A stretch of DNA of 64,000 bases, taken from assembly GCA_024703915.1 (NCBI GenBank), contig CP087969.1:3100001-3164000 (forward strand), written 5' to 3'. Origin of the DNA: Massilia sp. H-1. Lineage in GTDB: Bacteria > Pseudomonadota > Gammaproteobacteria > Burkholderiales > Burkholderiaceae_D. The notes beneath the pieces are model-generated. The model saw nothing but the letters and a program-made list of their open reading frames with translations. It had not been told where the DNA came from and did no database searches. The first letter of the stretch is position 1. Each line of letters opens with the position of its first letter. Shown piece after piece: positions 347-63,577 of this stretch. A program made the translations under genes and the position numbers.

Positions 347-1032
347 TTAATTCTTCTTATTGGCCGAGCGCGGTTTTCGTTGCGGCGTTGTTTTCTTTAA
401 GGCCTCGGCTTGTTCAGCCAGGATTTCCGCGTGAATCATTCGCTCGACGATATCGATCACGACGTTTACGTCAGTCGATGAGGGCTTGTGTCCACGATGG
501 GCTGATGCATGGCCTAAGCATCGATGGCCGCCTTAATAATTTCTCGATCGCGATTGCTGACAAGTTCTTTGTCGGCCAGCGCATCAAGTCCTTTTCCAAA
601 ATTGTCTTGGTCTCCTACCGAACGCCTGATCACAACGTCGATCAGCGCTCTCGCCCCCATCATGGCGAGCCGTCCACTATTGGCGTGCAAGGCGGCGTAG
701 ACCTCACCAAGCAGTTCGACATACTCCTCGGTGACTTCGTGGCGGTCAATCCATGCTGGTTTACGCCTAGATATCCTCGGCGGGAAGTAAGTTGCCGGGC
801 CATGGCCATCCTGCGGATCCTCTTCAGAGCACCAATCGGTGCGCTGCATCGCTACCTCTTCACAGCCACGACACTGGATTACTTTCCACGTCGAGCCCAC
901 CTCGACGGAGTATTGCCCATCGTCGAAGCTTCGACTGCGTTGTGCCTTGTGGAGCACCTCATGCTTAGTCTCGCCGCCGCAGACATTGCAGTGGAACCAA
1001 ATAATTCTCGGCGCCGTGGTCACTTGCCGCAC
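347..1032 (-). CDS. DUF4145 domain protein with N-terminal zinc ribbon (frame broken by a scar)
   Basis: The protein begins at a GTG (1032) that overlaps the end of the helicase gene, so translation is probably coupled. An N-terminal C-x2-C (FHCNVCGG) and a later C-x2-C (QCRGCEE) suggest a zinc ribbon. The following helical part, with [12 protein letters not shown] and [24 protein letters not shown], matches DUF4145. The frame appears to stop at a GCCTAAGC scar (512-519, plus strand). Restoring GCCGGC there continues the protein with [11 protein letters not shown] and [13 protein letters not shown], the usual DUF4145 C-terminus, to a stop at 347. DUF4145 proteins are common beside restriction and other defence genes, but their biochemical role is unknown. 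Here it sits between the helicase and the methylase. Confidence 0.8.
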
Positions 1033-4000
1033 TCAGCGCTATTGGCGCGTGAAAGCAGCGACCCCAAATCCATGTTGATGCTGCTGACCGCCCAGCCTGG
1101 TTCTTGGTCGAATGGATTGCGAATGTAGTGTGGGCCTTCATGCTCCTCGCCATCGACGATAACAATTGCCAAGAGAAACTTCTCGGCTTGGTTGAGGGCA
1201 TAGAGAATCTCGTTGCGCGTCACTGTGATTGTGGACTGGCCTTTGGCTCGACCCTTGACCTCGATGTGGCGCGCCTCAGCCATCTTGCCTTCTTCGGCAG
1301 GCGGAATCGCCGTCAAGTCCCAGCCGCACTTTTCGGCTGATACGTCGATGACTTGATGGCCCATGGACTCTTCAACCTTGCGGACGGCCTGCATGGCCAC
1401 ACGCTCGACGCGTGCGCGGGCGGCTGCATCGGCAGTCCAAGTCTCTCCTTCTGCGTCGCCACGGCGCTGTGCAAGCAATCCTGCCGGAATCACCAACGCG
1501 CCACCCACCACGACCGGGGTCGAGGACACGACATGTCGCAGAAGTCCTTAGCTCTTTGGTCCGGGTTTCCAGGCGGGCCGTCAATTCGTCGATAGTTCGA
1601 CGGACATTTTCGAGCGTCAAGCGAACGTCCTTGCCTGCTGCCAAATCGCTCTTAAATTTCTCGTGGCGATCGGACCAATAGTCGATCTCTTTGATTAATC
1701 GCTCATGAATGGCAGTAAGATTCTTGTCGACCTGTGCCTCGCGGCGTTGACTGACCTCCTCGAAGTGGGCTGGCACGAGCTTTTCCGAAGCGTGCGCCAA
1801 CGCGTTCTCTTCAAGGTCTTTCTTGATCCATTCGGCATCAATCTCGGGGTAGAAGCGAGCACTCGCTCGTCTGACTCGATCGGATTGAGGTCCAAGTGGG
1901 GAGCCCAGCCTGCGTTTTGAACCACGCCGTTCATGTCGACGGAAACGAATTGTAAAACGACGGGAGACGACCAAAGCGCCTTCGTCGCCCTCGCGAATCG
2001 AATGATCAATGAGGAATAGCAGCTTAGTATCGAGACTGTCGTCGTTCGGATCGACGAGTATCGTGCCCTGTTTGAGCTTGCCACGATGTTGTTCCAGCAT
2101 CAGATCGACAACCGAGTGCATGAGTGGATGAGCAGGGTGGACCAGACTGGCCATTGGCTCGCTCGGCCGATCCAATAGTCGGACAAACTGCTTCTCGAAG
2201 CAAACGCGCTCATACTTGACCAAGACCGGGTCCATGTTGCGTCGGTCGCGCCCGCTGATGTGGCGATCGCGTTCGCGAATTAGACCGGGGACGAATGTGA
2301 TCTCATATCGGCCTGAGCCGCGCGGGCGCAGATCGCCCCCGAGGCGCTCGAATGCCTGCGCGAAGAATGAACGAATGAAGTAGGGTTGGAGCTTCCTTGC
2401 CTCGGCTTTTTCCATCTCTTCCTTTAAAGCGAAGAGACGCTTCTCGTCCATGATTTCTTCGGCCAACGCATTGCGGCTTATGATCTCATGAAGGTGGCTC
2501 GTGTCGAGAGCGCCCTCGACCTTTTGGGTGAGCCTTGCCCGAACAGCGGGATCGTCGCCGTAACGGATCGCGTCAATCAACAATTCGCGCAGGCTAACGC
2601 CATCGAACACTTCGCCTAGCACATCAAACACGCGGCCACCCAAGGCCTTGCGTTCGATCTCGATTTTCTCGAAGAGCTTGTGAAATACCTCTCCTTCGCG
2701 AGTCTCGCTGGCGACCATGTTCCAGAGGTGGCATACCTCAGTCTGCCCGATGCGGTGGATGCGGCCGAAGCGCTGTTCCAATCGATTCGGGTTCCAAGGC
2801 AAATCGTAGTTCACCATCAAATTAGCGTTCTGCAAGTTGACACCCTCACCGGCTGCGTCCGTGGCGAGCAGGACGCGAGTGTCCTTGTCGTTTCGGAATA
2901 GCTCTTGGACTTTTCGACGGTCCTCCCGCTTGACCCCGCCGTGGATCATCGTCACGGCTTCTGTATTGCCCAAGAGCCCTCGAATCTGGACGGCAAGGTA
3001 ATTAAGCGTGTCGCGATGCTCGGTGAATATGATGAGCTTGCGCTGCAAGCCGTCCGCCCCATGCATTTCGGGCGTGTTCTGTAACAGCTCGCGCAGCTCT
3101 TCCCATTTGCGATCCTGGCCGGAGTGGACCAAAGCGCGAGCTTGCTCTTCAAGGTGTCCGAGCGTGAAGATTTCGGCTTCGAGCTCGGCGATCGTTTGGG
3201 CAGCGGTCGCTTGGTCGACTACTTCCTCCTCGAACTGCTCGTAGTCATCAGGATTCATGTCTTCGGAGCTGTCCCAAATGTCTTCGACAGTGCCGAAGCT
3301 TTGGATTGTCTCAGCCAGCGGCTTGCCGCCTCGCTGCTTGATTTTTTCGTCCTCGACACGGCGCTTCAACTTCTCGCGCCTGCGCTTCAAGGATTGATAA
3401 ATCGTTTCCAGGGCTCGACGCGAGGCGGCGTTGCAGGGCTGTCAGAGCGAATCCAACGGTCCCCTTCCGGCCCCCATCGAGCTTCTCAGCCCGGTTCATC
3501 TCCTCTTTGACGTAGGTCGTAACCGCGTTGTAGAGGTCGGATTCCGCCTTGGAAAGCTGATAGTTGCAGGTGTAGGCGCGGCGTTCGGGGAACAATGGCG
3601 TCCCGTCGAACTTGAGCAAGTCCTCCTTGACCATGCGTCGCATCATATCGTTGACATCGACCTTGTGCGCGCCATCGTGGAACTTGCCGTAGAAGCGGTC
3701 CGAATCCAAGAGCGACATGAAGAGTTGGAAATCCTCCTCTTTGCCGTTATGCGGAGTCGCTGTCATCAACAGAAAGTGGCGGGTGATGCCGCCCAAGAGT
3801 TTTCCCAGCTTGAATCGCTTTGTCTCGTTGAGCTTCGAGCCGAACCAAGTGGCCGAGAGCTTGTGGGCCTCGTCAACTACGATTAGATCCCAACGCGTAT
3901 TTTCCAACTTCTCCTGAAGGTCGTCCGCGCGGGAAAGTTGGTCGAGCCTCGCCACCATCAACGGGTTATCCTCAAAGGCGTTGCCGCCTCGGCTTTGTTG

Positions 4001-4789: not shown

Positions 4790-7282
<2,493 letters not shown>

Positions 7283-7418: not shown

Positions 7419-8526
7419 TTAAATACGCATCGGCATCACGACATACTTGAAGTCTGCGTTATCCGGAATCGAAATCAGCGCCGACGAATTCAGAATCGCC
7501 GAGCGAGATGTTGATCTGGTCGCACTTCAGGTTGTTCAGCACGTCGAGCAGGTAGGTCACGTTGAAGCCGATGTCCACGCTGTCGCCGCCGTAGTCGATC
7601 TCGAGTTCTTCAACCGCTTCTTCCTGGTCCGCATTGGTCGAGCTGATCTTCATGCTGCCCGGGGTGATGATGCAGCGCACACCCTTGAACTTGTCGCTGG
7701 TCATGATCGCGGCGCGTGCAGCGAACGCAGCAATTCGTCGCGGCCGATCGTGAAGTCGTTCTTGTAACCTTTCGGAATCACGCGCTGTAGTCAGGGAACT
7801 TGCCTTCCACCAGTTTCGAGACCAGCTCGATGTCGGCGAAGGTCAGTTTGACTTGCGAAGCGGAAATATCCAGCTGGACCGTCTCGTCGCTTTCTTCCAG
7901 CAGACGCTGCAGTTCGATGATGGTCTTGCGCGGGATGATGACTTCCTGGCGCGTGAATTCCTGTTCGGTTTCCACCTGGCAGAACGCGAGGCGGTGGCCG
8001 TCGGTCGCCACGGCGATCACGTTGCGGCCGTCGAGCACCAGCAGCAGGCCGTTCAGGTAGTAGCGGATGTCCTGCTGCGCCATCGAGAAGTGCACCATGT
8101 TGAACAGGTGCTTGAGCGTCTTTTGCGGCAGCGTGACGGTGGCGTTGTAGGTGTCGGCGACGGCAACCGTCGGGAACTCTTCAGCGGCCAGGGTCTGCAG
8201 GGCGAAGCGCGACTTGCCGGTCTGGACCGTCAGGCGCTTGTTTTCCAGTTTCATCGTCACGTCGCCCGATTCCGGCAACGCGCGCAGGATGTCGAGCAGC
8301 TTGCGCGCGGCGACGGTCGTGCTTAAGCCACTTCGGCACCCGAGCCGATGTTGGCGTGCGTCGTGATCTGCACTTCGGTGTCGGTCGACAGGAACGAGAC
8401 GCTTTCGCCGTCCTTGCGGATGAGGATATTGGCCAGAATCGGCATAGTGTGCCGACGCTCGACAATACCGCTCACGATCTGCAGTGGCCGGAGAAGGGTA
8501 TCTCGGGTGGTTTTGACCAATTGCAT
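7419..8526 (-). CDS. dnaN: DNA polymerase III beta sliding clamp (four frame breaks)
   Basis: The beta clamp encircles DNA and tethers polymerase III and other partners. The start MQLVKTTRDTLLRPLQIVSG and middle segments PILANILIRKDG, KSRFALQTLAAEEFP, VEGKFPDY, DKFKGVRCIITPGSMKISS and the end YVVMPMRI follow the family. The frame is broken at 8321-8328 by GCTTAAGC, where GCCGGC restores EVAGTTVAARKLLDIL. It also breaks near 7788 (one C lost; DYQRVIPKGYKNDF expected), near 7723 (one G lost) and near 7494 (an extra base). It lies downstream of dnaA in the standard order. A replication clamp cannot be a pseudogene, so these breaks are strong evidence for sequence error. Confidence 0.95.
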
Positions 8527-14994: not shown

Positions 14995-15398
14995 ATGCTG
15001 AGCGGCGGCTGTTATTGCAGGTGCAATCCGGTACCAGGCGCAGGGCCCGGCATCCAGCCAGACCATCTGCCATTGCCTCATGTGCTTAGGCGTACCACCG
15101 GCGCACCCTGCGTGGCCTGGGTCACGGTCGCGCGCGGCCAGTTTCAGCTCCTGTCCGGCCAGCCGACGCAGTTCCGTTCCAGCAATCACGCCACCCGCAG
15201 CTTTTGCCCCGTCTGTGGCACGCAACTCACCTTCGCCGACGATGGCTTGCCCGGCGAAATCGACATCACTATCTGCAGCCTGGACGATCCCGGCCTGGCG
15301 CCACCCAGGCGTCACATCCATACCCAAAGCCAGGTTCCCTGGCTCCAATTTTCTGACGGACTCCCGGTTTTCTCCGGCAGCAGTGCTTAAGCACCTGA
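14995..15398 (+). CDS. GFA/CENP-V family zinc-binding protein (frame breaks)
   Basis: After removing an extra A near 15019, the start reads MLSGGCYCGAIRYQ. Restoring GCCGGC at 15084-15091 gives CHCLMCRRTTGAPCVAWVTV. The rest, HATRSFCPVCGTQLTFADD and GEIDITICSLDDP, fits the glutathione-dependent formaldehyde-activating (GFA) fold with its CxC, CxxC and FCxxCG zinc ligands. A second scar at 15384-15391 produces a premature stop; GCCGGC moves it to 15396-15398 (GSSAGT end). The substrate is unknown. Many GFA members are not linked to formaldehyde. Confidence 0.85.
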
Positions 15399-15970: not shown

Positions 15971-16468
15971 ATGACCGCAGCAGTTAAACCAATTCCGTCC
16001 GACATGCACACGATCACCCCGCACCTGGTGTGCGCCAACGCGCTCGAGGCGATCGAGTTCTACAAGCGCGCCTTCGGCGCCACCGACGCCATGACCATGC
16101 TCACGCCAGACGGCAAACTGATGCACGGCCAGATCCGCATCGGCGACTCGGCCGTCATGCTGATGGAAGAAAACCATGCGTGGGGTTGCTTCAGCCCCAA
16201 AAGTTTGCTTAAGCCACCCCGGTCACGATCCACATGTATGTGACCGACGTTGACGCCATGTACGCCCGTGCCATCAAGGAAGGCGCGACCGTCAAGATGG
16301 AGCTAAGCCGACATGTTCTGGGGCGACCGCTACGGCGTGCTGACGGACCCGTATGGCCACAGCTGGTCGATCGCTACCCACAAGCAAGACCTGACGCCGG
16401 AACAGATGGCCGAAGGCATGAAGGCCATGTGCGCTGGAAACGCCGAAACAGTAAGGGGAACACAATGA
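15971..16468 (+). CDS. VOC (glyoxalase/bleomycin-resistance fold) family protein with two scars
   Basis: Starts MTAAVKPIPSDMHTITPHLV with AGGAGA upstream, then EAIEFYKRAFGA and MLMEEN. Scars at 16208-16215 and 16302-16308 break the frame. GCCGGC at both restores SLPATPVTIHMYVTDVDAMY and MEPADMFWGDRYGVLTDPYGHSWSIATHK, the classic VOC C-terminal motif. The corrected stop overlaps the next start (ATGA at 16465-16468), so the two are coupled. The family covers glyoxalases, dioxygenases and antibiotic-binding proteins; the exact role is unknown. Confidence 0.87.
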
Positions 16469-20489: not shown

Positions 20490-21136
20490 ATCCCGCTGCT
20501 TAAGCCGACGTTTCCCCCAGCACTTCCAGGGCTTCGTCGAAATCGAAATCGTTGATTGCCTCGGCCACGCGCTGCAGGGTGGCTTCTCCCAGAATGACGC
20601 GCAGGCTGGCGCTGGATTCTTCCAGCAAGTCCACCGCCGCGCCGTCGCCGTTGGACAACAATTCCATCAAGCGGTTCAGCAAGGCCGAGTCTTCGAGCAG
20701 GGGCCGGGACGGCACTTGCACCACGACGCCGACAGGCGGACTTCCTTCGAGCAAGACATCGAGCAAGAGCAGTACGCGCTGAAACTCGGGCGTGAGCGAG
20801 GCCAGCAGTTCGCGCTGGTCGCTGGCTTCGGTGCGGATCGCGTTTTCAAGCTGGGATGCGCGCTGTTGCAGGCGGTGCGCGCCGATCATGCATGCATGGG
20901 CGCCCTTGAGCGAGTGCACCAGGCGGTGCGCGGTGCGCTTGTCCTGGTCCGCGATGGCGGTGCAGAATCGGCAAGGTCGCATCCTGATATTCACGGCGGA
21001 AACGGCGCAGCATGCGGGCATACAGATCGCGGTTGCCCATCAGCCGTTCAATGCCGTCGGCCACGTCGATGATGTCGCGCGTGACCGGGTCCGCGCGCAG
21101 TTCAATCAGATCGTTGGAGGTGCTGTCAGTCGTCAT
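20486..21136 (-). CDS. HPt-domain phosphotransfer protein
   Basis: Begins MTTDSTSNDLIELRADPVTR. The phosphoacceptor context is RTAHRLVHSLKGAHACMIG, the HPt motif H-S-L-K-G with His at about residue 74. A C-terminal segment (LLNRLMELLSNGDGAAVDLL; FDFDEALEVLGETSA) is of the kind found in hybrid-kinase HPt proteins. One extra base near 20967 splits the frame. A GCTTAAGC scar at 20498-20505 creates a stop; restoring GCCGGC extends it to SAGSGI* at 20486. The partner kinase is not in this window. Confidence 0.8.
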
Positions 21137-21201: not shown

Positions 21202-22137
21202 CTAAGGCTTAGTAGTAAATGACCAGCTTTTAACAACAGGAACGCCCCCCAGCGTGCCGCTGGAAGCTGACGTCGTAAATGGTGCTTGGGGCCAGCACGG
21301 ACAGCGGGATGATCGCGGCGGCCGACTTCGGCGTATGGGCGGCATCGCTTGCCGCGCTGAGCAACTTCACGGACACGGCGCTGCCGCCGCGGGCTGGATG
21401 GTGAAGCTGGTGACGGTCAGGCTCAGGTCGCCGTCCGCATGGACGCTGACCGGGTAGCCGACCTCGTTTTGGTTGGCAACCGGGTCCGGGCTTTCAAAGT
21501 CGCTCATGAAATTGCGCGTCACGCCGGTTTGCGCGTTGACCGGCCAGGTCGACAGATTGCTTAAGCACCGATGCTTAAGCGCCGAGGTCATTGTTCGCTG
21601 CAAAATTGATCGTCAGTATGCTGTAGCCATTGCCGCCCGTTACCGAACCGGCGCCGACTTCCTTGAACTTCGGCTCGTACATCACGAAGCGGTGGTAGAT
21701 GGCGGTGATCAATTCTTCGGTCAGGTAGGCGCCCGAATTGCTGGTGCTGGCGGAAATGACTTCACCAATGAAATAGCTGCTTACCAGGTAATTGACCTGG
21801 GTCAGGCGGTCGGCCAGGGTGACGCCGGTAAAGCCGGGCTTGCCCGCTTCCTGCTCGTGCGTGACCGTGTTCAGCTGTTGATACGAAGAATGACGCTGCG
21901 CGGCCAGATCGATCAGCGCGTTGCGCGGCAGCACGGGCAAGCCGCTCTGCCCACGGCGGAAATTGACCCAGTTCACGGCGTCGGTGGCGATGTTGCCGGT
22001 CGCGGCAGGGGAGCCGGGCTCGACCGGTGTCGGCGGCACGACTGCTTAGAGGAGGAACCGCCACCGCCGCACGCCACCAGTGCCCATGCCGTCACCAGTG
22101 CCGCCAGCGTGGTGTGCAAGCGTCCCATTGTCCTCAT
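21202..22137 (-). CDS. CAP/SCP-domain secreted lipoprotein (scars)
   Basis: The signal peptide MGRLHTTLAALVTAWALVAC-GGGG has a lipobox LVAC and a glycine-rich start. The CAP domain shows AVNWVNFRRGQSGLPVLPRN, DLAAQRHSSYQ, GVTLADRLTQVNY and GEVISAS. Tandem GCTTAAGC scars at 21559-21566 and 21573-21580 break it after NNDLG; GCCGGC at both joins it to NLSTWPVNAQTGVTRNFMSD and an Ig-like tail (GDLSLTVTSFTIQP; STIYDVSFQRHAG; WSFTTKP*). A single-base error lies near 21392 and another scar near 22045. Predicted as a surface or periplasmic protein of unknown target. Confidence 0.82.
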
Positions 22138-24468: not shown

Positions 24469-25621
24469 TTACTTCCAGCCAGAGCCGGATCGAATCCCAT
24501 GCGCGGCCAAAGATCGATGCCTGGCTGACTTCTTCCAGCGCCACCACCGGCAGTTCCAGCACCGGCTTGCCATCCACCATCATCTTGAGCGTGCCTACCT
24601 GGCTGTTCTGCGCCAGCGGTGCCACCAGCGGGTCCTTGCGTTCGAGCACGGGCTTCATCTTGCCGACCACGCCCTTCGGCACGGTGACCATCACGTCCCG
24701 GGTGAAGCCGATCTTGACCGTGCTCGACGAGCCTTTCCACACTTCCGGCTGCTGTACGACCTGGTCCTTGGAGTAGAGCTTGACGGTGTCGAAGTTCTGG
24801 AAGCCCCAGTTGAGCAGCTTCTGGCTTTCCTGGGTGCGGGTCTGGTCCGAGTTGGTGCCGAGCACCACGGAAATCAGGCGGCGCTGCAGATTGCCGTTCG
24901 GACGCTTGGCCGAGGCGATCATGCCAGCTTAAGCGCCTTCGGTGTGGCCGGTCTTCATGCCGTCGACGGTCGGATCGAGCCACAGCAGGCGGTTGCGGTT
25001 CGGCTGGGTGATCTTGTTGTAGGTGAAGCTCTTGACCGAGTCGATCTTGTAGAACTCGGGGAAGTCCACGATCACGCGTGCCGCCAGGATCGACAGGTCA
25101 TGCGCGGTGGAATAGTTCTCGGCGCTGGGCAAACCGTGCGGATTGCCGAAGCGGGTGTCTTTCATGCCCATGCGCTGGGCTTCGCGGTTCATCAGGACCA
25201 CGAAGGTGGCCTCGTCATGCTAGCCACCGCTTCGGCCAGGGCCACCGCGGCGTCGTTACCCGATTGCACCATCAAGCCGTGCAGCAAGTCGTTGACCGAG
25301 ACCGGCGTGGCCGGATCGATGAACATCTTGGAGCTGCTGGCATCGACTTTCCATGCCTTGACCGAGACATTGATCATCTGGTTCAGCTCGAGCTTCTTGT
25401 CGCAGCAGCGGCGGCGAAGGTCAGGTAGGCCGTCATGATCTTGGTCAGCGAGGCGGGCTCGATGCGCGCATTCGGCTCCTGGGAGGCGATGACCTGGCCG
25501 CTGGTCGCGTCCAGCAGCAGCCACGAGCGGGCGGCGATGGTCGGGGCCTAAGCAGGGTCTGGGCCACGGCGGCCGAGATGGTCAGGACGCTGGCTGCGAG
25601 TGCCGCAAGTAGTTTTTTCAT
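24469..25621 (-). CDS. D-alanyl-D-alanine carboxypeptidase (PBP5/6 family), three scars
   Basis: Trims pentapeptide side chains of peptidoglycan in the periplasm. The signal peptide MKKLLAALAASVLTISAAVA leads to the SxxK motif ASLTKIMTAYL, SGN in VQSGNDAAVAL and KTG in VDGMKTGHTEGAG. The C-terminal PBP5-type domain (VTVPKGVVGKMKPVLERKDP; VGTLKMMVDGKPV) ends in an amphipathic helix AWDSIRLWL that can anchor it to the membrane. Scars near 25548, near 25217 and at 24927-24934 break it. The final stop needs a one-base correction near 24475. Confidence 0.92.
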
Positions 25622-25675: not shown

Positions 25676-26319
25676 CTAGCGCGGGCTGTCGCCGTCCCGG
25701 CGCCACAGTTGAATCACGAGATTTTTAATGTGACCCAGCTTGCGGTGGAAAAAGTGGTCGGCGCCCGGGATCACGATCACCGGAATGTCTTGCGGACGGG
25801 CCCAGTCGAGCACCTGGGTCAGGGTGATGGTGTCGTCGACTTCGCCGTGGATCAGGATCGTGTCGGCTTAAGCACGTCCGGTACCGGCCATTTGCTTAAG
25901 CCGCGGTGCCGACCAGCACCAGGCGCTCGGCCGGGCGGCCTTCGGCCTGCAGACGCTGCTGCAGCTGGGCCATCACGAAGGTGCCGAAGGAAAAGCCGGA
26001 CAGCGCAATCGGCAAGCCCGGATACTGGGCTTGCATGTGTTCGAGCATGATCAGCATGTCGTCGGTCTCGCCATGGCCGTGGTCGTGCACGCCTTCCGAG
26101 GCGCCCACGCCGCGGAAATTGAAGCGCGCCGCCACGTAGCCGAGCGCGACAAACGTGCGGGCCAGGGTGGCGGCAACCTTGTTGTCCATGGTGCCGCCGT
26201 ACAGCGGATGCGGATGCGCAATCAGGGCGATGCCGCGCGCGCGTGTAAGCAGATCGAGCAGGCATTCCATCAGGTAGCGCGTGGCCGGTCAGGGTGAATT
26301 TATCGGAATTCTTGTTCAT
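25676..26319 (-). CDS. Alpha/beta hydrolase (COG2945-like), two scars
   Basis: LIAHPHPLYGGTMDNKVA is the oxyanion-hole/strand motif of COG2945 hydrolases. The nucleophile elbow is GFSFGTF. After two GCTTAAGC scars (about 25865 and 25893) the frame continues ADTILIHGEVDDTITLTQVL and VPGADHFFHRKLGH, with the catalytic Asp and His. Restoring GCCGGC gives GTAAGKWPVPDVPADTILIHG. It is immediately downstream of the ferredoxin gene (no gap). Substrate unknown. Confidence 0.85.
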
Positions 26320-34601: not shown

Positions 34602-36129
<1,528 letters not shown>

Positions 36130-36312: not shown

Positions 36313-36324
36313 AGTTCCGAATTT

Positions 36325-36400
36325 GGGGGATTAGCTCAGCTGGGAGAGCACCTGCTTTGCAAGCAGGGGGTCGTCGGTTCGATCCCGTCATCCTCCACCA
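36325..36400 (+). tRNA. tRNA-Ala (anticodon TGC)
   Basis: 76 bases with CCA encoded. Acceptor GGGGGAT/ATCCTCC, anticodon loop TTTGCAA, T-loop GGTTCGATCC. Second spacer tRNA. Confidence 0.96.
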
Positions 36401-36624
36401 CTACCTACTAAGAAATCAAATGTAAGCCCTGAGGTTTAGATTTGATCTTTTAGAGATCATTGCTGTTTCGTTCTTTAACAATCTGGAAGAAGTAAAGTTT
36501 TATGTCAATCCGTGCAAACGGTTTGGCAGGGTAGTAAAACTTGTATCAACAAACAAAGCAACAACGCTGTACTCTTATCTCTATAAACGCTTTCTGGTTA
36601 GTCGCCAGAAGCTAACGTTATAGG

Positions 36625-39496
<2,872 letters not shown>

Positions 39497-39636
39497 CTAT
39501 AACATTAGCAGTTGTAGACGATAAGAATACGCGTTGTGCTTGTTGTTGATACGAGTGCTACCAGTAATACAAAACAATACTTCTTCCAGATTCAAGGTAC
39601 TGCTGCCCCGTTGGGAGCATCTACCTGTACAAGTTA

Positions 39637-39752
39637 TGCCTGATGACCATAGTAACTCGGTACCACCCCTTCCCATCCCGAACAGGACCGTGAAACGAGA
39701 TTACGCCGATGATAGTGCTGCAACCAGTGTGAAAGTAGGTTATCGTCAGGCT
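39637..39752 (+). rRNA. rrf: 5S ribosomal RNA, copy 1
   Basis: TGCCTGATGACCATAGTAAC through CCCATCCCGAACAGG to GTTATCGTCAGGCT; the ends pair (TGCCTGA/TCAGGC). Follows 23S by about 140 bases. Confidence 0.95.
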
Positions 39753-41720: not shown

Positions 41721-42465
41721 TTAGCGCGGCGTTGCCATGTTCAGCTTGACGGCCGAACGCAGGGGCTGGATGAAGTCCGGTTCGTCGAGCAGGTCGTCGC
41801 TCGGCCTTGCCCGCTTTCGCGGCGCTGTTTTGAGCATCAGCGATTCACGCGCGGAATGCAGCGGCGCGAAACGTGCCCGGCCATCCTGGCCGACGACTTC
41901 CAGGAAATCGGAACGCGCCTGGTAGATCCGCATGAAACGCAGATTCGACTTGTCGGCATTGCCGTGGAAACTGGCCATGGCATCGACATCTTTCGACAGC
42001 ACGCTCGCACCGTACTCGACGGTTTCATGTAGCGGCCATTGTTGCGCTCGACTGTTGCCATCCCGATCGGACGGTCATTGAGCGTGATCACGAAACGCCA
42101 TTGCGCGGTTGGCTTGGCCATGCCTTGCATGGTATTGCAGGCTTAAGCAATCAGCTCGGCTGGATCGACGGTGTACACCGGGAAGCCATAGCTGATCTTG
42201 GCATCCTTCAGATCCTGCAGGTCGGAAATCTCCAGTGGGAAATCTGCTTGAGCGATCCTCCGCCGCGCAATTGTTGCTGCGCGGAGGCGAACTGCGCGAA
42301 ATCGCGCTGCGCGGCGGACAGCGCGTCGGCCGACTGGCGCTTGAGGGCGTTCTGGATTTGCGCGTTGACGTTCTGGGCCTGGACCCCAGGTGCGGTCAGC
42401 GCCAGGGTGGCCGTTCCGAGAACGACGGCCAGCAGGGTGCTGCGAAGTGGTTTTACGGCTTGCAT
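41721..42465 (-). CDS. Secreted protein co-encoded with the papain-like protease
   Basis: Starts MQAVKPLRSTLLAVVLGTAT with GGAGACAGACACA upstream; predicted signal peptide ending near VQAQ. The joined frame continues QNALKRQSADALSAAQRDFA, ADFPLEISDLQDLKDAKISY, GFPVYTVDPAELIA-G (scar at about 42137), KPTAQWRFVITLNDRPIGMA, and ends RSAVKLNMATPR. I do not recognise a family. The close spacing suggests a role as inhibitor, chaperone or propeptide in trans for the protease; that is inference. Confidence 0.65.
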
Positions 42466-42718: not shown

Positions 42719-43940
42719 TCAGGCTGCCTTCAAAATTTGTTCGCCGATCATGTCGGCAGTCACTGCCGACAAGGTCCAGCCCAGATGGCCGTGCCCCGTG
42801 TTGTAGAACACGCCGGGTGCATTGCCGCGTCCCACGCGCGGCAACATGGTCGGCATCATCGGACGCAAGCCGGCCCACGGAATGACATGGCGGGTATTCA
42901 CGCCGGGGAAGCAGCGCTGTACCCAGTCGACCAGCGGCCGGATCCGGTCGGCGCGGATGTCGCGGTTGAAGCCATTGAACTCGGCCGTGCTTACCCACCC
43001 GGAAGCGGTCGGCGCCGAGGCGGCTCGTGACCAGCTTGGTCGCGTCGTCCAGCAGACTGACCGTGGGCGCGGCCGCCTGGCTGGCGGGATCGTCGAGGTT
43101 CACTGTGATTGAATACCCTTTGACCGGATAGACATTGACGCGGTCGCCCAAGGATGCGGCCAGCGCGCGGCTGGCTGTGCTTAAGCACAAATGACGACGC
43201 CGTCGACGTTGTAACGCTCGGAAAGCTCACCGTCGGCCAGATCGATTTCAATCCGTTTGCCGTCGGCATGAATGGCGCGCACCGCCTGGCCGTGGTGGAA
43301 CTTGACCCCCTTGCGCTGCGCCGCGGCCGCCAGGCCGGTCGTGAATTTATGGATGTCGCCGGTGGAATCGCTGTCGGTGTAGAAACCGCCGTAGAAGTCG
43401 CCCGCGAGCGTTGGCTCGATCGCGCGCATCTCGGCCGCAGTGACGGCGCGCCGCTGCAGCCCGCCCTGGGCCAGCAGACGGTTGACGCTGGCCGCGTGAT
43501 CGAAGCCAAGCACGGTCGCGGTAGATGTGGAGGATGCCTTCGCGGCGCGCATCGAAATCGATGCCTTCTTCGTGCGCCCACGAGAACAGATGTTCACGGG
43601 CCGCGATCGCCAGGCGCGTGGTTTCGATCGTATTGCGGCGGTAGTGGGGAATGGCCGCCGCGAACTCGGCAAACCAGGACAGCTTGTGCCAGCTCGGGGT
43701 GGGATTGACGAGCAAGGGCGCGTCGCGCGTGAACATCCATTTCAAGCCCTTGAACAAGGTCGAACGGTGATTCCAGACTTCGGCATTCGAGGCCGACAGC
43801 TGGCCGCCATTCATGAAAGAGGTTTCCATGCCCGTGTAGCGGTGCTGCTCGATCACGGTCACGGCAAAGCCGCGCCGGGCCAGGGCGTAAGCGGTCGTGA
43901 CGCCGGTAATGCCGCCGCCAATTACTGCAATAGTTTTCAT
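42719..43940 (-). CDS. dadA: D-amino acid dehydrogenase (FAD-dependent)
   Basis: Oxidative deamination of D-amino acids (possibly glycine). The FAD-binding start MKTIAVIGGGITGVTTAYAL is canonical; then SFMNGGQLSASNAEVWNH, NPTPSWHKLSWFAEF, GGFYTDSDSTGDIHKFTTGL and WAGLRPMMPTMLPRVGRG, NTGHGHLGWTLS. Scars at about 43179 (restores VVICAGTASRAL) and about 42993 (GGTAAGC; restores FRVAGTAEFNGFN) break the frame, with one more break near 43520. It lies behind a tandem glycine riboswitch, which points to glycine or a related amine as signal and perhaps substrate. Confidence 0.92.
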
Positions 43941-47313: not shown

Positions 47314-48412
47314 CGTGCGCGGAAGCGCCTGGGTGGACGAAGGCGCCGCCTCGGCGTGTTCGCCGCGCAAGGCGAAGCGCGCAATGCTTAAGCCAGCAGG
47401 GCACCGGCCGCGATCATCCAGATCGCCTTGGTTTGCAGCGGATACGCTGCCTGATAGTAGAAGGCGCCGATAATCCACGCCGCGGCAATGCTTAGGCCGC
47501 CGTCGCCATGCGCCAGCTGCGCATGCCTAAGCACTGACGGCCAGAATCAGCAGCACGCCGCCCAGACTCGGCATCAGCCACGCGAGACCGAACAGGACTA
47601 CGGCGGTCAGGCCGCTCCACGGACGCCGCAGCGCCAGCCAGCGCCGCGCAATCCAGGCGGCGCCGCCCACACTCATCACTACGGATCCGGCGCGGGCGAT
47701 CGCGTCCCAGGGTTGTGCCAGGGTGCGCCAGTCGTTTGCGCCATCGCTTCAAGACTGAACTGGGCGCCGACCAGGAAGGTGACGCCTGCGTACAGGGCCA
47801 GGCCAGCGAGCAGGGCCGCACTCCACCCGCTTGCCAGGGCGTTCAGTACCGGCGCGCGGGCGCAGCTGGGCGAGGAGCCAGACCAGCAGTGCCGCATGCA
47901 GTGTCGACCAGAAATAGAATGCCTCATCAAAGTGATGCTTCGGCACCAGTGCCAGCATGCCCATCGTGCACGCCATGATGCCGAGCAGTATGCGCAGCCA
48001 CTTGCGGTCGACGCCAACGGCGATCGCGATGGCCAGCGCATAGCAAAGCGATGGCGCTGTGGTGGGACAATTTGTCGAACAGGCCGGACCCAAGGATCAC
48101 CAGGGCAGCGATGAGCGCGGGCACCAGCAATTGTTCTACGAACAGCGGCAAATTGCGCTTGCGAAGGAGGGCGACCGCGGCGGCGAGCAGCGGAATGCCG
48201 ACCAGGAAGGGCCCGGCGCCGCGCTCAAGCACGCCACCGAACGCGATAAAGAAGATGGAAATCAGGGGGATGGCTGCCAGCCAGGCACCGAGCGCAGTCA
48301 GGGCGATCACCGGCCAGGGCCGCTCTTCCTCCTGCAATCGTGTGCTTCCCGGGGGCAGAATACCTTCGGCAATGGCTGTCGAGATCAGTTGGTCCAGTCG
48401 TGCGTGACTCAT
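47314..48412 (-). CDS. DUF4401 membrane protein (many frame breaks)
   Basis: Begins MSHARLDQLISTAIAEGILP, followed by some ten hydrophobic segments (VIALTALGAWLAAIPLISIF; LLGIMACTMGMLALVPKHHF; FYFWSTLHAALLVWLLAQLR). Scars near 47526 (restores VSAGMRSWRMATAA), 47489 (TAAAGIAAAWIIGAF) and 47389 (LLAGIARFALRG) split the end. Its start overlaps the DUF2157 stop (ATGA). Function unknown; the trio is conserved as a unit. Confidence 0.75.
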
Positions 48413-49389
48413 GCTGTCTCTCCTGCAGTAGCGCGCCGCGACTGTTTCAGAATGAAGTGGACGGTGCTTAAGCCAGCATGGCGGCCGCCGCAATGGCGAT
48501 CAAGGTCAGTTCCGGAACTCGGTCGCTGCCCGGTCCGTCGAGCAAGAGGTTGACGAGCAAGCCGACCAGCATCACGTTCAGGCTCAGGCCGATTGCGCTC
48601 AGTGCGAAGATGTCGTGCAGGCGGGGCGAGCAGAAGGCAGCCATGGCGCCGCCCAAGGTCGCCAGCGCAATAAAGTAGAGCAAGTCGCTACCGTCACGAT
48701 CGAACAGGTAGTCGAGGCCGATGAAGGCGATCAGCATGGCGGCAAACACCAGAGCGGTGCGCATGGCCCAGGGGCCCGCGCCGGTGTAGCGGTGCAGCAC
48801 GGGTGACATGGCAACCACGAGCAGCGACGAAACCAGCCAGGACACGAGGTGCACCGCCGTGTGGCCCGGGCGCGAATCCCAGCTATAACCGATCTTGGCA
48901 TGCACCCAGAGCGTGACGGCAGTCATCACCACCAGCGCCCACGGCGCCCACAGCGCATCGTGCCGCACACCAAGGCAGAGCGGCAGCGCCAGGGCGGACC
49001 ACAAGGCAAACAATTGCCAGGCGTCCGCGCCGGTCTGATAGGTCTGGCCGAAAAGGCGAACAGGCCGCCGATGGCCATGAACGCGGTCAGGCCGAGCGGC
49101 ACCCGGGCACGGGGCAGCAGGAGTGCGCTTAAGACACATGATCAGGATCACAGCCTGCAGCAAGGCAAACTTGCCGCTGCGGCCTAGCGTATCCCAGTTG
49201 GCGGCGATCCAGAATACGATGCCCAGTCCGCCAAGGGCGGCGGCCAGGATGGCGATGCCGAGGGGCAGGGTGCGCTTCCAGGCCGGGCGGTTCCGGCGTG
49301 CGGTCGGCGAGGCATTGCAGCTGTTCGGCTGCGGCGGGAGAGAGGGAATATCGGACTGCCAGTTCGTGCAAGGCGGGACGCGGGTCCAT
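48409..49389 (-). CDS. DUF2157 membrane protein
   Basis: The soluble N-terminus MDPRPALHELAVRYSLSPAA is typical of DUF2157. Then multiple membrane helices (VFWIAANWDTLGRSGKF; SWLVSSLLVVAMSPVL; FALSAIGLSLNVMLVGLLVN). Scars near 49127 (CTTAAGC; restores IMCAGALLLPRARVP) and 48468 (restores AMLAGTVHFILKQSRR), plus breaks near 49060 and 49285. First gene of the trio, transcribed away from rRNA operon 2. Confidence 0.8.
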
Positions 49390-49565: not shown

Positions 49566-49842
49566 CTCACCTCTCTGCTGCTTACGAACACAACGCTTCG
49601 TACCAGGCAGCAAGGCAGTACCGAACCCTCGGCGGGAGCCTCGTTCTTTAACAATTAACAGTCGATAAGTGTGGGCGTTTGATGAAGGTGCCAAAGACCT
49701 CGGTCTTTGAATACTTAAATTATCAAATGTTCACAAAAAGAAATATAGGCGCTTCGCAAGAAGTGGCCTGTCAGTATTTTGAGTGAGCGAATTCGGACCA
49801 ATGGGACGAATTCGGGCCGAAAGGTCCGACAAACAGAGATTG

Positions 49843-51372
<1,530 letters not shown>

Positions 51373-51459
51373 GAGTTGCACCTGGTTATAGAACCATTCA
51401 TTAAGCGTCCACTCTTATCGACTGTTGAATTTAGAAGAAACAGTAGCAGTGTCCAAGTC

Positions 51460-51535
51460 GGGGCTGTAGCTCAGCTGGTTAGAGCACCGTGTTGATAACG
51501 CGGGGTCGTTGGTTCGAGTCCAACCAGCCCTACCA
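51460..51535 (+). tRNA. tRNA-Ile (anticodon GAT), copy 2
   Basis: Same as the copy at 36236 except one G fewer in the variable-loop run (GCGGGGTC for GCGGGGGTC), which makes it 76 bases; probably a homopolymer error. Confidence 0.94.
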
Positions 51536-51547
51536 AGTTCCGAATTT

Positions 51548-51623
51548 GGGGGATTAGCTCAGCTGGGAGAGCACCTGCTTTGCAAGCAGGGGGTCGTCGG
51601 TTCGATCCCGTCATCCTCCACCA
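51548..51623 (+). tRNA. tRNA-Ala (anticodon TGC), copy 2
   Basis: Identical to the copy at 36325. The spacers around it differ between operons (51372-51410 versus 36129-36180, and 51624-51660 versus 36401-36430). Confidence 0.96.
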
Positions 51624-51852
51624 CTCTACTTAATCTTGAAAGTGCAAACGTAAGCAAAGATGCTTAGGTTTGATCTTTTAGAGATCATTGCTGTTTCGTT
51701 CTTTAACAATCTGGAAGAAGTAAAGTTTTATGTCAATCCGTGCAAACGGTTTGGCAGGGTAGTAAAACTTGTATCAACAAACAAAGCAACAACGCTGTAC
51801 TCTTATCTCTATAAACGCTTTCTGGTTAGTCGCCAGAAGCTAACGTTATAGG

Positions 51853-54722
<2,870 letters not shown>

Positions 54723-54862
54723 CTATAACATTAGCAGTTGTAGACGATAAGAATACGCGTTGTGCTTGTTGTTGATACGAGTGCTACCAGTAATACAAAA
54801 CAATACTTCTTCCAGATTCAAGGTACTGCTGCCCCGTTGGGAGCATCTACCTGTACAAGTTA

Positions 54863-54978
54863 TGCCTGATGACCATAGTAACTCGGTACCACCCCTTCCC
54901 ATCCCGAACAGGACCGTGAAACGAGATTACGCCGATGATAGTGCTGCAACCAGTGTGAAAGTAGGTTATCGTCAGGCT
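54863..54978 (+). rRNA. rrf: 5S ribosomal RNA, copy 2
   Basis: I see no difference from copy 1. The paralogous block ends just after the terminator hairpin that follows. Confidence 0.95.
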
Positions 54979-55783: not shown

Positions 55784-58474
55784 ACGCGCACGGACCACCG
55801 AGCCGCTGATAGCCGTCGTCGAACAGCATCCAGGCGGCGTAGTTTCCCGGCGCCAGGTTCGTCGTATCGAAACTGACACTGCCGCTGGCGGTCGTGATGT
55901 ATTTCCAGTCCAGCCATTTTGTCGTGCCTGGCTCAGCGCTCAAGCACTCCACAAACCAATCCAGTTCCTGGCCCGCACGCGGCTGGCTTAAGCATCGCGA
56001 ATGACAAGACCATTTGCCCGCCACGGACCACCGACGCCGTGCTGTTCGACACTAGTTCCGTGACGCAGAAGGACACCGGGCCGCCAAGTACTTCATAGCC
56101 GTCCCGATACAGATACCAGGCGCTGTAATCCGCCACTGCCAGTCCCGCAGTCCCGGCCAACCAGCTGCCGCTTTGCTGCGCCGCGTAGGTCCACACGGCG
56201 GCGCTGCCCTTGCTTAAGCACTTGTGCCCGGGCCATACACGCCGATCCAGTTCTTCGCATCCAGCTTGCCGACAGGCGCGGCATAGGCCAGCGCGAATCC
56301 GCTGCCTTTCTGCACGTAAGCGGCCTTGGCCGACAGCGCGGCTTGCTGGCTGCGGTTGGTGCCGATCTGTGGATCGGTCCTGCTGGCGCCGCCCGTTTCC
56401 ACATGGCCCGCAATGCGGCGCAAGAACTGGCTGTCGCTGCTGCTGCGAATCGACAAGTCGTACCAGCCAAAGCTGGTGCCGAGCGGACGCTTGAGGGCGA
56501 CTGTTGCCGACGGACCGATGACGACCGTGCTGCCTGCAGCGCCATAGGCATTGTCGGCCACGGTCACGGTGCACGCTGTGCTGCCGCCGACATTGGACAG
56601 ATAGAGCACCAGGCCCGGCACGCCAGGCTCGTACTCGACCCGCACATCCGGCCGCGCCGTGTTTGCTGCCGTGCTGCCCTTGAACTGGCGCAGGAATCCG
56701 TTCGGACCATGCACGCTCAGCTCATACGTCGGCGTGCTGGGAGTTCCAGGTTTCCGCCTCGATCGACTTGCCCGGCTCGACCGCGTAATACCAGGGCCCA
56801 TCGGTGCGCACGCTGGAATAGGCAATGAAGGCAGCGCCGCAGCGTCCGCTATTACGCAGGTTGAGCACCAGCCGCGCGCCAGTCGCCGTGCCGTCGGCCG
56901 TGACCTGATAAGGCAGCGCGCAGGCGGGCCGGGTGTTGCTCGGGTCGCTGCAACGCTCCTGGCGTGGCAGTGTCTGCTGCTGCGGCGGAGCCGGCATCGG
57001 TTTGCCGCTGACCAGGGTGTAGCTGGTCGAGCCCGGCACGCTGGCTTAGCCAGCCGGTGTTCGGATTCTTGAAGTCGAAGGCACTGGTCAGGTCGCCACT
57101 GACCGTGCGCCGCCACGGCGAAATCTGGTTGCAGGCGATCGCGTTGCGCACCTTGCCGCGCGCGACCAGCCACTCTTCGAGGAACCGTAATTGCGAGGTG
57201 TGGTCGAACAGTTGCGAGCACACGCGGCCGCCCTTGGTCCAGGGCGAGACGATCAGCATCGGCACGCGCGGTCCCAGTCCGACCGGGATGCCTTGGTAAT
57301 TCTCGTACTGCCCAATGTCCGGCAGCGTGGTGCGGCCCATGGCCGTCGTCAGCGGCGGCACATGGGCTGGCATGTGGTCGAAGAAGCCATCGTTCTCATC
57401 GTAGGTCAGCAGGAAAACCGTCTTCGACCAGGTTTCCGGACTGGCGACCAGGGCCGCGAGCAAGCGTGCAGCAATGTTCTCATCGGCATTCGGCGAGTTC
57501 AGGTGAATGCTCGGTGTAATCGTTGGGTGCGCAGATCCACGATACCTGCGGCAAGCGGCCATTGCGCACGTCGTCGGCAAAGCTGGCGACCAGCCAGTCG
57601 CCGCGCGTGCCAACGCTGTTGCTCTCAGTCGAGCCCGGCGCGATCGCACGGCCGTACTGGTAAAGGGGCGAGCTGCTGCTCAGGCGCGAGCCGTCCGCAT
57701 TCACGCGGAAGTTGCGGAAGTACGCCAGGTAGTTGTCGCCGTAGTTGTCCCATTCCTGGTACACCTTCCAGCTCACCCGGTTGGCTTGCAAGGTTTCCGC
57801 GTAGGTCGTCCAGTTCGGTGCGGATGCCGTCACGGCGGCGGTGACGTTGTCCTTGGCGGGATCGTTGTTGTAATAGCCGCGGGTGCTGATGTTGTACAGG
57901 CTGCCCATGCTGGCGATCCAGTTCTGGTTGGTGCCTGTCAGCATGAACATCCGGTTGGGATCGGTCGCGCCAAAGATCGAGCAGTGGTAGGCATCGCAGA
58001 TCGTGAACGCGTCCGCCAGCGCGTAATAGAAAGGAATATCGGCGCGGTCGAAATACCCCATCGACAGCGCCGTTTTTTGCCTGACCCAGGCATCCCAGCC
58101 CTGCCATGTCTGCTGCGATCCTTTCCACGAATGATTCGTGCCCACCGACAGCGCTGGTGTTCTTGACGTCGAAGTGGAATGGCAGCACGGTGCCGCTTCG
58201 ACCGTATCCGGCTGATGCCATACCGGCAAGCCGGACGGCAGGGTAATGGCGCGCGGATCGTCGAAGCCGCGCACGCCCGACAGCGTGCCGAAGTAATGAT
58301 CGAAGGAGCGGTTCTCTTGCATGAAGATCACCACATGCTCAACGTCCGCCAGCGTGCCGGTGACGTTGTTCGCCTCCACTGCCAGCGCGTCGCGTATCAC
58401 GGCCGGTAACATCGATGTGCTTAGGCCGCTGCTGCAGCCATTCCCAGAAAACCGCGCCTGCCTTTCGAGACCAT
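55770..58474 (-). CDS. Phosphocholine-type phospholipase C, Tat-exported (many breaks)
   Basis: Twin-arginine start MVSKGRRGFLGMAAAAA-G (scar near 58421). The phosphoesterase core shows VEHVVIFMQENRSFDHYFGT, CDAYHCSIFGATDPNRMFML, FLLTYDENDGFFDHMPAHV and LGPRVPMLIVSPWTKGG, the acid-phosphatase/PLC family motifs. The C-terminal PLC repeats are LSVHGPNGFLRQFKGS and YDLSIRSSSDSQFLRRIAGH. Two further C-terminal segments (WTYAAQQSGSWLAGTAG...; ITTASGSVSFDTTNLAPGNY, AAWMLFDDGY) extend it to about 900 residues. Scars near 57044 (TGWPASVPGS), 56213 (TSAGKGSAAVW) and 55987 (AMAGQPRAGQELDW). Confidence 0.88.
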
Positions 58475-60375: not shown

Positions 60376-61963
60376 TTATTGCGGCTTGTACGTCACTTTC
60401 AGGTTGTAGGTCGACGCCTTGTAGCCTTTGAGCAGCACATACACGTCGCCATTGGCGGTCATGCTGACCGTGCAGGTTTCCGTGCTGGTGGCGCCGTCCG
60501 ACTTGCAGGTGTAGGTGGACGTGGTCGGCACCGCCGACTTGCGCACATACAAATCAGGTATCGCCGGTGCCGGTGGTATCGGCCCGGAAACTGCCGCCCG
60601 ACGCCACCTTGAACGGACCGAAGGACTTGGTCTGATTGAGCGTCAGCGAACCGCTGAAGTTTTCCACGCGGTCGGCTGCCGCCGGTCCGTCACTGCCCAG
60701 TTCGATCAAATAGGCTGCCGCCAGTTTCGCGAACTTGAGCGCGTGCGCCGCCTGATTGCCCGAATTCGCATAGGTATCGTTGGCGGTGTGGATGTAGGGG
60801 TTGTCATCCCCGTCCAGCGTTTCGAAAGGGAACGATGCCGGGTAACCCTGGTTGTACCAGGAAGCATGATCTGAGCAGGCGTAGCCGCACTTCGAATAAC
60901 CGACCGTCACGCCCGGCTGATAGGCTGCTACCAGCTTGGCAAGGAAGTCGTTCTGCAAGCTGTCGGTGTAGTCGGTGTAGATCCAGATGTCCGACGGCGA
61001 GCCCTTGTAGTTGGTCATATCAAGCTGCATCGAGCCGACCACATTGACATTGTTGGCCTTGAAGTTCTGCGCGATCGCCGCCGAACCGCGCAAGCCAACT
61101 TCCTCGGCCGCATAGCCGATGAACTTGATCGTGCGGCGCGGCTTGTAGTTGCTGGCAATCAGGGCGCGGAATGCCTCGGTCATGCTGGCAAGACCGGACG
61201 CATCGTCATCGGCGCCCGGTGCGCGCATGGTCTCGCCTGAACCCGATCCGACCGAATCGAGGTGGCCGCCAATGACGATCACTTCAGCCGCATTGTCGGT
61301 GCCGGTAATGGTCGCGATCACGGACTTCTGGTTGTAGCCGCTATGCGTGAACTGGGTCACGGAAATATCGCTGCGGCCGGTGGCCATGCTTAAGCCCACT
61401 TGGTGCGCAGCCAGTTCGACGCATCGCTGCCGCCGGTCGTGTTGTAGTAGCGGTTCACGAACGAGGCCAGATCATTGATCGTGGTCGTGATATTACTGGC
61501 CTGCATTTGCGAGAGCACGCCCGGCACCACCGCCTGGTTGTCGAGGACATACGAGGGACGGCTGAGCATGGGCGTGGCCAGCGTGGAGAGCGTGGCTTGC
61601 TTGCTCAAGGCCCGTTTGCCCTCGGCCTCGCTGGCGTGGAACATGTAGCCGCCGCAGCGTTTCAGCTCCTTGTGCACCGCTTCGCTGAGGCTGGCCAGCT
61701 GGCTGTCGTCGACCTCGACCAGGTGCACTTTTTCGGTGGCGGCGATCTTGGCGCTTACTTTCGTTGGTGCGCAGCAGTTTGCTTTCCTTGGCGATCACTT
61801 GGGGCGCCACTTTCTGCAAGTGGGCAAACGCCGCATCGCCGACCGTGATCCAGCTGGTTTTCGCTTCCGCCATCGCGTTCGTGCTGGCCAGCAATCCGGT
61901 CAGCAACATGGCCAGCGCGGCTGGCAGTACGCGGCGCGTGGGATGACGCATCTGATTGTTCAT
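60376..61963 (-). CDS. Secreted M28 zinc aminopeptidase with PPC domain, paralogue A
   Basis: Signal peptide RRVLPAALAMLLTGLLASTN, a propeptide (WITVGDAAFAHLQKVAPQVI), then the M28 catalytic domain: GGHLDS, APGADDDASG, GYAAEEVGLRGS, MQLDMTNYKG and CSDHASW supply the two-zinc site. C-terminal PPC domain (FGPFKVASGGSFRADTTGTG; CTVSMTANGDVYVLLKGY). The frame stops at a GCTTAAGC scar near 61387 (restores KWAGMATGRSDISV), with breaks near 61753 and 60555. About 75% identical by eye to paralogue B, 33 bases upstream. Confidence 0.92.
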
Positions 61964-61996
61964 GATTCTTCCTTTTTCATGTCAGGTTGAGTCGGC

Positions 61997-63577
61997 TTAC
62001 TGCGGGGTGTAGGTCAGCTTCAGGCTGTAGGTCGCGCTGGTGTAGCCCTTGAGCAAGACGTACACATCGCCATTGGCCGTCATGGTCACCGTGCACGATT
62101 CGGTGCTGGTCGCGCCATCCGATTTGCAGGTGTACGACGAGGTGGTCGGGGTGTAGGTCTTGCGGACATACAAGTCGGTGTCGCCGGTCCCCGTGGTCTC
62201 AGCCTTGAAGGTGCCGCCGCTTCTCACCTTGAACGGACCGAAGGCCTTGGTGGCGCCGGTCGCGAGCGAGCCGCTGAAATTCTCCACGCGTGGCAGATTG
62301 GTGTCGCTGATGCCATCGCTGCCCAGTTCGATCGCGAACGAGGCGGCCAGCTTGGCGAACTTGAGCGCGTGCACGGCCTGGTTGCCGGAATTGGCATAGG
62401 TATCGTTGGCGCTGTGAATGTAGGGATTGTCGCCACTCATCGACGACTCGAATGGCATCGAGGTCGGATAGCCCTGCGCATTCCACGAAGCATGATCGGA
62501 GCAGGCGTAGCCGCAGCGGTCGTAGCCGATGGTCAGGCCCGGCTGGTAGGTCGTGATCAGCTTGGCGACGAAGTCGCTTTGCAGGCTGTCCGTGTAATCG
62601 GTGAACAGATAGATGTCGTTGGCCGCCCCCTTGTAGTTGGTCATGTCGAGTTGCAGCACGCCCACCACATTGACATTGTTGGTCTTGAAGTTCTGGGCGA
62701 TGGCTGCCGAACCGCGCAAGCCCACTTCTTCGGCCGCATAGCCGATGAACTTGATCGTGCGGCGCGGCTGGTAGCCGCTCGCGATCATGGCCCGCAGCGC
62801 CTCGGTCATGCTGGCAATGCCGGATGCATCGTCGTCGGCGCCTGGTGCGCGCGTGGTTTCGCCGGTGCCCGAACCGTTGATCGAATCGAGGTGGCCGCCA
62901 ATGACGATCACCTCGGACGCATTGTCGGTGCCGTTGATCGTCAGAATCACGGACTTCTGGTTGTAGCCGCTGTGCGTGAACTGGGCAACGGAAATATCGC
63001 TGCGCCCGGTGGCCATGCTTAAGCCCACTTGGTGCGCAGCCAGTTCGATGCATCGCTGCCGCCGGTGGTGCTGTAGTAGCGGTTGACGAAGGACGAGAGG
63101 TCGTTGATCGTGGTCGTGATGTTACTGGCCTGCATTTGCGACAGGACAGGCGTGACAGTCGCACTGTTGTCGAGCACGTAGGAAGGCCGGGTCAGCATGG
63201 CCGTGCTCAGCGTGGTCGCCTTGGTCAGCGCGCTTGCCGTCCGCCTCGCTGGCGTGGAAGGCAAAGCCGCCGCAGCGCTTGAGCTCGTGGTGCACGGCTT
63301 CGCTCAGTTGCGCCAGCTGCGTATCGTCGACCTCGACCAGGTGGACTTTCTCGGTGGCGGCCACTTTGGCGTGGGCATCGGTGGCGCGCACCATCTTGCT
63401 TTCTTTGGCGATCACTTGCGGTGCGACTTTCTGCAAGTGCATGAAGGCCGCATCGCCGACCGTGATCCAGGTTTTTCCTGCCGCCATCGCGGCCGAGCTG
63501 GCAAACAAGCCTGCCAGCAAAACGGCGAGCACGGCCGGTACCGTGCGGCGCTCGAAATGTCGCTTCTGATTCTCCAT
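61997..63577 (-). CDS. Secreted M28 zinc aminopeptidase with PPC domain, paralogue B
   Basis: Signal peptide TVPAVLAVLLAGLFASSAAM, propeptide WITVGDAAFMHLQKVAPQVI, catalytic motifs GGHLDSINGSG, APGADDDASG, GYAAEEVGLRGS, LQLDMTNYKG and CSDHASW, and a PPC domain ending SLKLTYTPQ. The scar near 63017 lies at exactly the same codon as in paralogue A (KWA-GMATGRSD), and one base is lost near 63232. Tandem duplicate of A; both are predicted to be extracellular. Confidence 0.92.

Follow-up and report, generated by a model that had tools for sequence, protein, structure and literature searches.

Why do the genes of one 64-kb stretch of a bacterial chromosome break repeatedly at much the same short string? 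The stretch (hereafter the window, 64,000 bases) comprises positions 3100001-3164000 of the single 5,836,689-base contig of Massilia sp. H-1; coordinates outside the window are those of this contig (G000:C1). The strings at issue, here called scars, are of four types: GCTTAAGC; GCCTAAGC/GCTTAGGC; GCTAAGC/GCTTAGC; and GCCTAGC/GCTAGGC. The palindrome GCCGGC is nearly absent from the same DNA. The scars are very probably nanopore-type consensus errors, made where the strain's own NaeI-type restriction-modification system methylates GCCGGC. That they stem from consensus error at a modified site is almost certain.

An earlier note on the window had found four copies of GCCGGC by eye where about 60 were expected. 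Recounting gives five (27706..27711, and at 41661, 42869, 44918 and 56990) against 53.1 expected under a first-order Markov model. Under the same model GCTTAAGC is expected 0.9 times and is observed 18 times; it has the highest observed/expected ratio among the 256 palindromic octamers. String counting places its copies at 8321..8328, 15385..15392, 16207..16214, 20498..20505, 21559..21566, 21573..21580, 24927..24934, 25866..25873, 25894..25901, 31540..31547, 42141..42148, 43179..43186, 47386..47393, 48466..48473, 55986..55993, 56212..56219, 61388..61395 and 63017..63024. Together the four types account for 57 strings (18, 17, 14 and 8, in the order given above), in keeping with the more than fifty scars noted before. 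They span 512..63024, with the first at 512 and the last at 63017-63024, exactly as had been described. Four of them (37755, 38095, 52982 and 53322) lie inside two 23S ribosomal RNA (rRNA) genes and 53 lie outside. The four are probably natural, because the rRNA stretch of a relative holds such strings too (one GCTTAGGC and one GCTAAGC).

The whole assembly is affected. Counts of the kind the earlier note had proposed, in the assembly and in its relatives, give 1773 copies of GCTTAAGC here and 0-165 in 391 other genomes sampled from the family; none of these 391 is a second affected genome. GCCGGC occurs 1645 times, against 8570 for its reversed control CGGCCG. The ratio is thus 0.19, and in 16 relatives of the genus it is 1.46-1.76. 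The string GCYTAAGC is found 2502 times on the forward and 2526 times on the reverse strand, compared with 23-59 times per strand in the same 16 relatives. The two GCYTAAGC types occupy 3255 distinct sites (the palindrome being counted once). The completeness of the genome is estimated at 48%.

All strings of the form GC-X-GC, where X is one to six bases, were compared between a 664-kb sample of this genome (30 stretches together with the window, making up about 11% of its length) and 191 kb of the nearest relative, G006, with the counts of the relative scaled. GCTTAAGC is present 208 times against 3.5, GCCTAAGC or its complement 157 against 3.5, GCTAAGC 165 against 17 and GCCTAGC 84 against 17. 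GCCGGC drops to 148 against 999. The four scar types together exceed the scaled counts by about a half to two thirds of the GCCGGC shortfall, and single sites show further scar variants. Strings rich in G+C are also enriched, at ratios of 1.2-1.9, the largest being GCCGC, GCGCCGC, GCCCGGC and GCCGCGC. GCCCGGC was considered as a scar variant and dropped, as none of 65 copies aligns to GCCGGC of the relative. At the start of the contig, positions 1-26052 are without GCTTAAGC, which first appears at 26053; GCCGGC is scarce in the first 20 kb too (2 copies, against 25 of CGGCCG).

Alignment to G006 covered 147 kb at 82% identity, and the sites compared had passed a flank filter. Only 1 of 119 GCCGGC sites of the relative is kept in this genome, and 42 of the 119 are changed in length; for nine control palindromes the corresponding ranges are 35-64% and 0-9.5%. 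In a ranking of 971 hexamers with at least 40 sites each (overlapping alignments left in), GCCGGC is worst on both counts, with 1 of 123 sites kept and 46 of 123 length-changed. The mean over all hexamers is 43% kept and 2.7% length-changed. The one-mismatch neighbours of GCCGGC, merged by strand into nine classes, behave almost normally, with 28-62% kept and 0-9% length-changed. The full hexamer therefore defines the site; it is marked by the whole of GCCGGC and by nothing shorter or more degenerate. When the scan starts from this genome instead, fragments of scars take the first nine places for length change among 6-mers and the first 14 among 7-mers and 8-mers. The scars themselves align to GCCGGC in the relative in 8 of 24 cases for GCTTAAGC, 6 of 16 for GCCTAAGC, 4 of 21 for GCTAAGC and 4 of 13 for GCCTAGC. 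These fractions are roughly what the divergence allows, because even the control palindromes are kept at only 35-64%.

The scar strings are related in their construction. GCTTAAGC is the two-sided form, and GCCTAAGC and GCTTAGGC are one-sided forms; scar events are mostly +1 or +2 insertions. Scar halves were counted in the 664-kb sample, each on its own strand. The base just 5' of the motif is T for 341 of 573 TT halves and for 19 of 157 CT halves (Fisher p 3.5e-28); G in this position shows the reverse trend (133 of 573 TT halves, 84 of 157 CT halves). Dependence on the 5' base is a prediction of strand-wise k-mer misreading. The form of the strings suggests that the inner C of each strand was read as T, together with an inserted T.

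A course of events can be proposed on this basis. The strain's NaeI-type system would methylate GCCGGC on both strands, and native DNA would have been assembled by nanopore-type sequencing, nanopore being presumably the platform. On each strand the modified inner C would be called T, and in certain contexts a further T would be added. The reads from opposite strands would then conflict, with both errors retained in the consensus. The inner CG of GCCGGC would thus become TTAA (GCTTAAGC, +2) or a lesser form (GCCTAAGC, GCTAAGC, GCCTAGC). The genes of the cell would be intact at the scar sites.

A candidate source of the modification is present in the genome. A NaeI/NgoMIV-like cytosine methyltransferase had been suggested as the enzyme to look for, and a cassette of this kind lies on the same contig at 3045936-3048518, 51 kb from the window. 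It consists of a C5 methyltransferase gene (M; 3045936-3046978, minus strand, read in two frames; PF00145, 1.5e-47), an open Vsr endonuclease gene (V; 3047218-3047622, plus strand; Pfam 1.7e-28, with a separate match at 7.3e-25) and a gene for a NaeI-family endonuclease (R; 3047702-3048518, plus strand, read in two frames whose two pieces match PF09126 at 4.4e-48 and 1e-12). The first piece of R matches NaeI of PDB entry 1EV7 (E 4.9e-26). The residues aligned with NaeI E70, D86, D95 and K97, which we take to be its catalytic set, are identical in the cassette endonuclease. The methyltransferase carries GVPCPPFS (the PC motif) and ENV. Matches to PF00145 are found in the genome only at 3046005-3046978 (minus strand); the profile search returned no further C5 methyltransferase here and none in G006.

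The NaeI family is confined to this genome, both among the 17 genomes of the genus and among 369 genomes of the class. The 16 genus relatives that lack it all have normal GCCGGC counts. In G006 the same alignable flanks enclose about 1 kb of DNA in place of the cassette, which has 50% G+C, against 61% and 53% on its two sides. The cassette contains neither GCCGGC nor any listed scar string. Aligned over 239 residues with its counterparts next to the NaeI-family genes of a Rhodococcus and a Loktanella plasmid, the methyltransferase shows 54-55% identity (244 and 263 bits). In a tblastn comparison with the C5 methyltransferases of ten genus loci, identity is 26-38% over shorter stretches and the score is 129 bits at best. 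The endonuclease is 38% and 43% identical to the NaeI-family enzymes of the Rhodococcus and Loktanella plasmids. These plasmids are unrelated, and both place a NaeI-family gene beside a cytosine methyltransferase. The cassette resembles the NaeI type IIE system in its homologous endonuclease; the adjoining C5 methyltransferase and Vsr genes have a parallel on the Rhodococcus plasmid pROB02. The cassette differs in gene order, as Vsr stands between M and R here but after R in Rhodococcus, and in that M and R are read as frameshifted in this assembly. NaeI cuts GCCGGC. A review passage prints its site as GCC|CCG; this string lacks palindromic symmetry and is apparently a misprint. From its NaeI partner, the predicted target of the cassette methyltransferase is GCCGGC, and the enzyme is probably active.

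Frame breaks were counted in 102 kb of aligned coding DNA. A raw count of 556 frame-changing gaps, 101 of them at scars, was dropped because it is inflated by alignment noise at about 80% identity. The filtered count is 226, or 2.21 per kb; it excludes stretches that match poorly and alignments in minus orientation. Two other relatives compared with the same reference have one event each in 11.3 and 10.4 kb (0.09-0.10 per kb). It should be noted that both controls are limited to DNA syntenic with the window; over this part the present genome shows 24 events in 12.3 kb. The 226 events comprise 53 at a listed scar, 23 at a GCCGGC of the relative, 26 in homopolymers and 124 others; the 24 of the window part are split into 8, 2, 2 and 12 in the same order. 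Motif-linked breaks therefore number 76 (34%). The earlier note had attributed gene breaks throughout the window to the scar, which holds for about a third of the filtered breaks and was overstated for the remainder.

The other events are of mixed kinds. Sixty of the 124 include further scar-like variants and two-base losses in CG repeats. Many are single inserted bases, often beside GG or after TTC, and in the 102 kb of coding DNA no motif stood out among them after GCCGGC was masked. With GCCGGC masked, the top length-change contexts are CGCGCGC (27 of 143), A-runs (AAAAAG, 12 of 54) and near-motif strings. A second modified motif was rejected, because the masked scan yields no context beyond A-runs, CGCGCG and strings near the motif. 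Where the relative has a run of six, it is shortened here in 8 of 18 cases and lengthened in none; runs of five are shortened in 5 and lengthened in 1 of 40. Homopolymers and short tandem repeats are the usual weak points of nanopore sequencing (PMC11649196; this and the other PMC papers are cited from excerpts, and statements about them are limited to these). The shortened homopolymers and CG-repeat indels of this assembly fit nanopore consensus error.

Not everything favours methylation by the NaeI-type system as the source of the scars, and some points weigh against it. Across the genome 1645 copies of GCCGGC are left intact. Only 2 of the 11 intact copies that can be aligned match GCCGGC in the relative. 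About two thirds of the filtered frame breaks lie outside the motif assignment. Neither M nor R can be read through in a single frame (each takes two), and the cassette has no listed scar. Finally, plain m5C (5-methylcytosine) in CpG is common in base-caller training data, so that near-total miscalling with insertions is stronger than usual; published cases are mostly mismatches (PMC10687267, PMC12506013). Some of these points can be qualified. Intact copies in the 664-kb sample are flanked by GC in 21% of cases, against 11% in the relative. This suggests contexts in which the miscall fails, and therefore some intact copies may be protected contexts and some may be miscalls. The break in M needs to be another sequencing error, because methylation requires a working M; a rate of 2.21 frame-changing events per kb makes such an error likely. 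At that rate, the splits do not show M or R to be dead.

Modification of GCCGGC, the cause proposed earlier, is supported by the motif ranking and the cassette; the context dependence and the residual homopolymer and CG-repeat indels fit nanopore consensus error. The mark itself could be other than the 5-methylcytosine (m5C) of a NaeI-type system, for instance N4-methylcytosine, phosphorothioation or a bulkier base made by another enzyme. Both the completeness of the miscall, with insertions beyond the mismatches published for methylation, and the frameshifted methyltransferase reading frame would suit this. Phosphorothioation by Dnd was rejected, as DndC, the sole Dnd gene tested, has no match in the genome. 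The N4/N6 methyltransferase family PF01555 has a single match, which is syntenic in G006 and has counterparts (E below 1e-55) in each of the 16 genus relatives, and those have normal GCCGGC counts. Another mark would also make a coincidence of the cassette's presence here alone, and we consider it quite improbable. Alternatively, a base caller or polisher might fail at GCCGGC through context with no modification needed. The effect of the neighbouring base and the homopolymer and CGCGCG errors of this assembly are compatible with that, but none of the 391 other sampled family genomes is affected (three genus members in one or two contigs included), the one-base neighbours of GCCGGC are near normal and the NaeI coincidence is left unexplained. 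Such a context error is extremely unlikely.

A real change in the DNA, through avoidance of restriction sites under NaeI, deamination of m5C or a motif-rewriting enzyme, is scarcely conceivable. The motif is indeed depleted genome-wide, a restriction-modification system of this specificity could select against its sites, and the Vsr gene points to deamination of m5C. However, avoidance and deamination act by substitution, from which GCTTAAGC would not arise, and the estimated completeness is 48%. The earlier note had held that biology could not explain the scars; length changes at 42 of the 119 sites and 2.21 frame breaks per kb, against about 0.1 in relatives, bear this out. Real mutation and restriction avoidance were thus rejected on the frame-breaking insertions. 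Methylation of GCCGGC by the NaeI-type system, misread in sequencing, is the preferred explanation.

Under that explanation the modification is plausibly cytosine-5 methylation. A bulkier or additional modification at GCCGGC, from the cassette or another enzyme, would account for the miscalling of almost all sites and for the prevalence of insertions over C to T mismatches; this variant is very unlikely. Methylation of the motif is known elsewhere. In an Aeromonas strain the third base of GCCGGC is recorded as m5C (PMC8565308), and at pilE/pilS of Neisseria GCCGGC is called as 5-methylcytosine (5mC) by nanopore at 32 of 33 places (PMC12871193). With newer software, therefore, m5C at GCCGGC need not break base calling.

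Errors of this kind have been described. Chiou et al. 2023 report errors that strike particular strains at one motif and amount to 1533-5670 mismatches per affected genome; the authors ascribe them to modification systems specific to a lineage (PMC10687267). The motifs there are pentanucleotides (GCAGC, GCTGG) with an excess of mismatches, whereas here a palindromic hexamer carries mostly insertions of one or two bases and the scars are seen in a finished assembly without reads. For R10 data from Neisseria meningitidis and Salmonella, 199 of 208 discrepant single-nucleotide polymorphisms (SNPs) are C/G read as T/A, and 152 are at sites called as 5mC (PMC12506013). The scale there is some 200 SNPs, compared with thousands of scar strings here. 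Within the literature searched, no account of an assembly with GCCGGC scars came up, which does not prove that there is none. The type of error is already known from these accounts (PMC10687267, PMC12506013); new to this instance are the motif, scars made by insertion, and a cassette in the same genome that matches cleanly.

The case is ordinary in kind and unusually clean in proof. The motif was named from the scars alone, and the matching restriction-modification cassette was found afterwards. A finished public assembly can hold a readable imprint of its methylome. The genome, at 48% completeness, is unsuited to studies of pseudogenes, gene loss or motif avoidance before it is resequenced. 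Other assemblies of this sort could be picked out by the same count, of a palindrome lost and a fixed indel string gained.

Directly upstream of the window lie 40 kb (3060001-3100000; L083, L084) with 52% G+C, against 62% in the 664-kb sample. They hold no GCCGGC and few CGGCCG (3 per 20 kb), and are possibly an acquired island. Within the window there are two rRNA operons, at 34601..39751 and 49842..54977 (both plus strand), which have the same orientation and are about 15.2 kb apart. Their 16S and 23S genes contain neither GCCGGC nor GCTTAAGC. The operons were compared as a control; the rRNA stretch of the relative has three GCCGGC, none within the aligned part. Between the two operons, the 16S genes show 3 mismatches and 2 gap columns, the 23S genes 2 of each. 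A repeat of about 90 bases is found at 17261-17358 and at about 24368-24455. It matches both strands in the manner of an inverted repeat, has matches at dozens of places in G006 and looks like a REP/REPIN-type element. A tandem pair of glycine riboswitch aptamers is located at 44009-44201 (minus strand).

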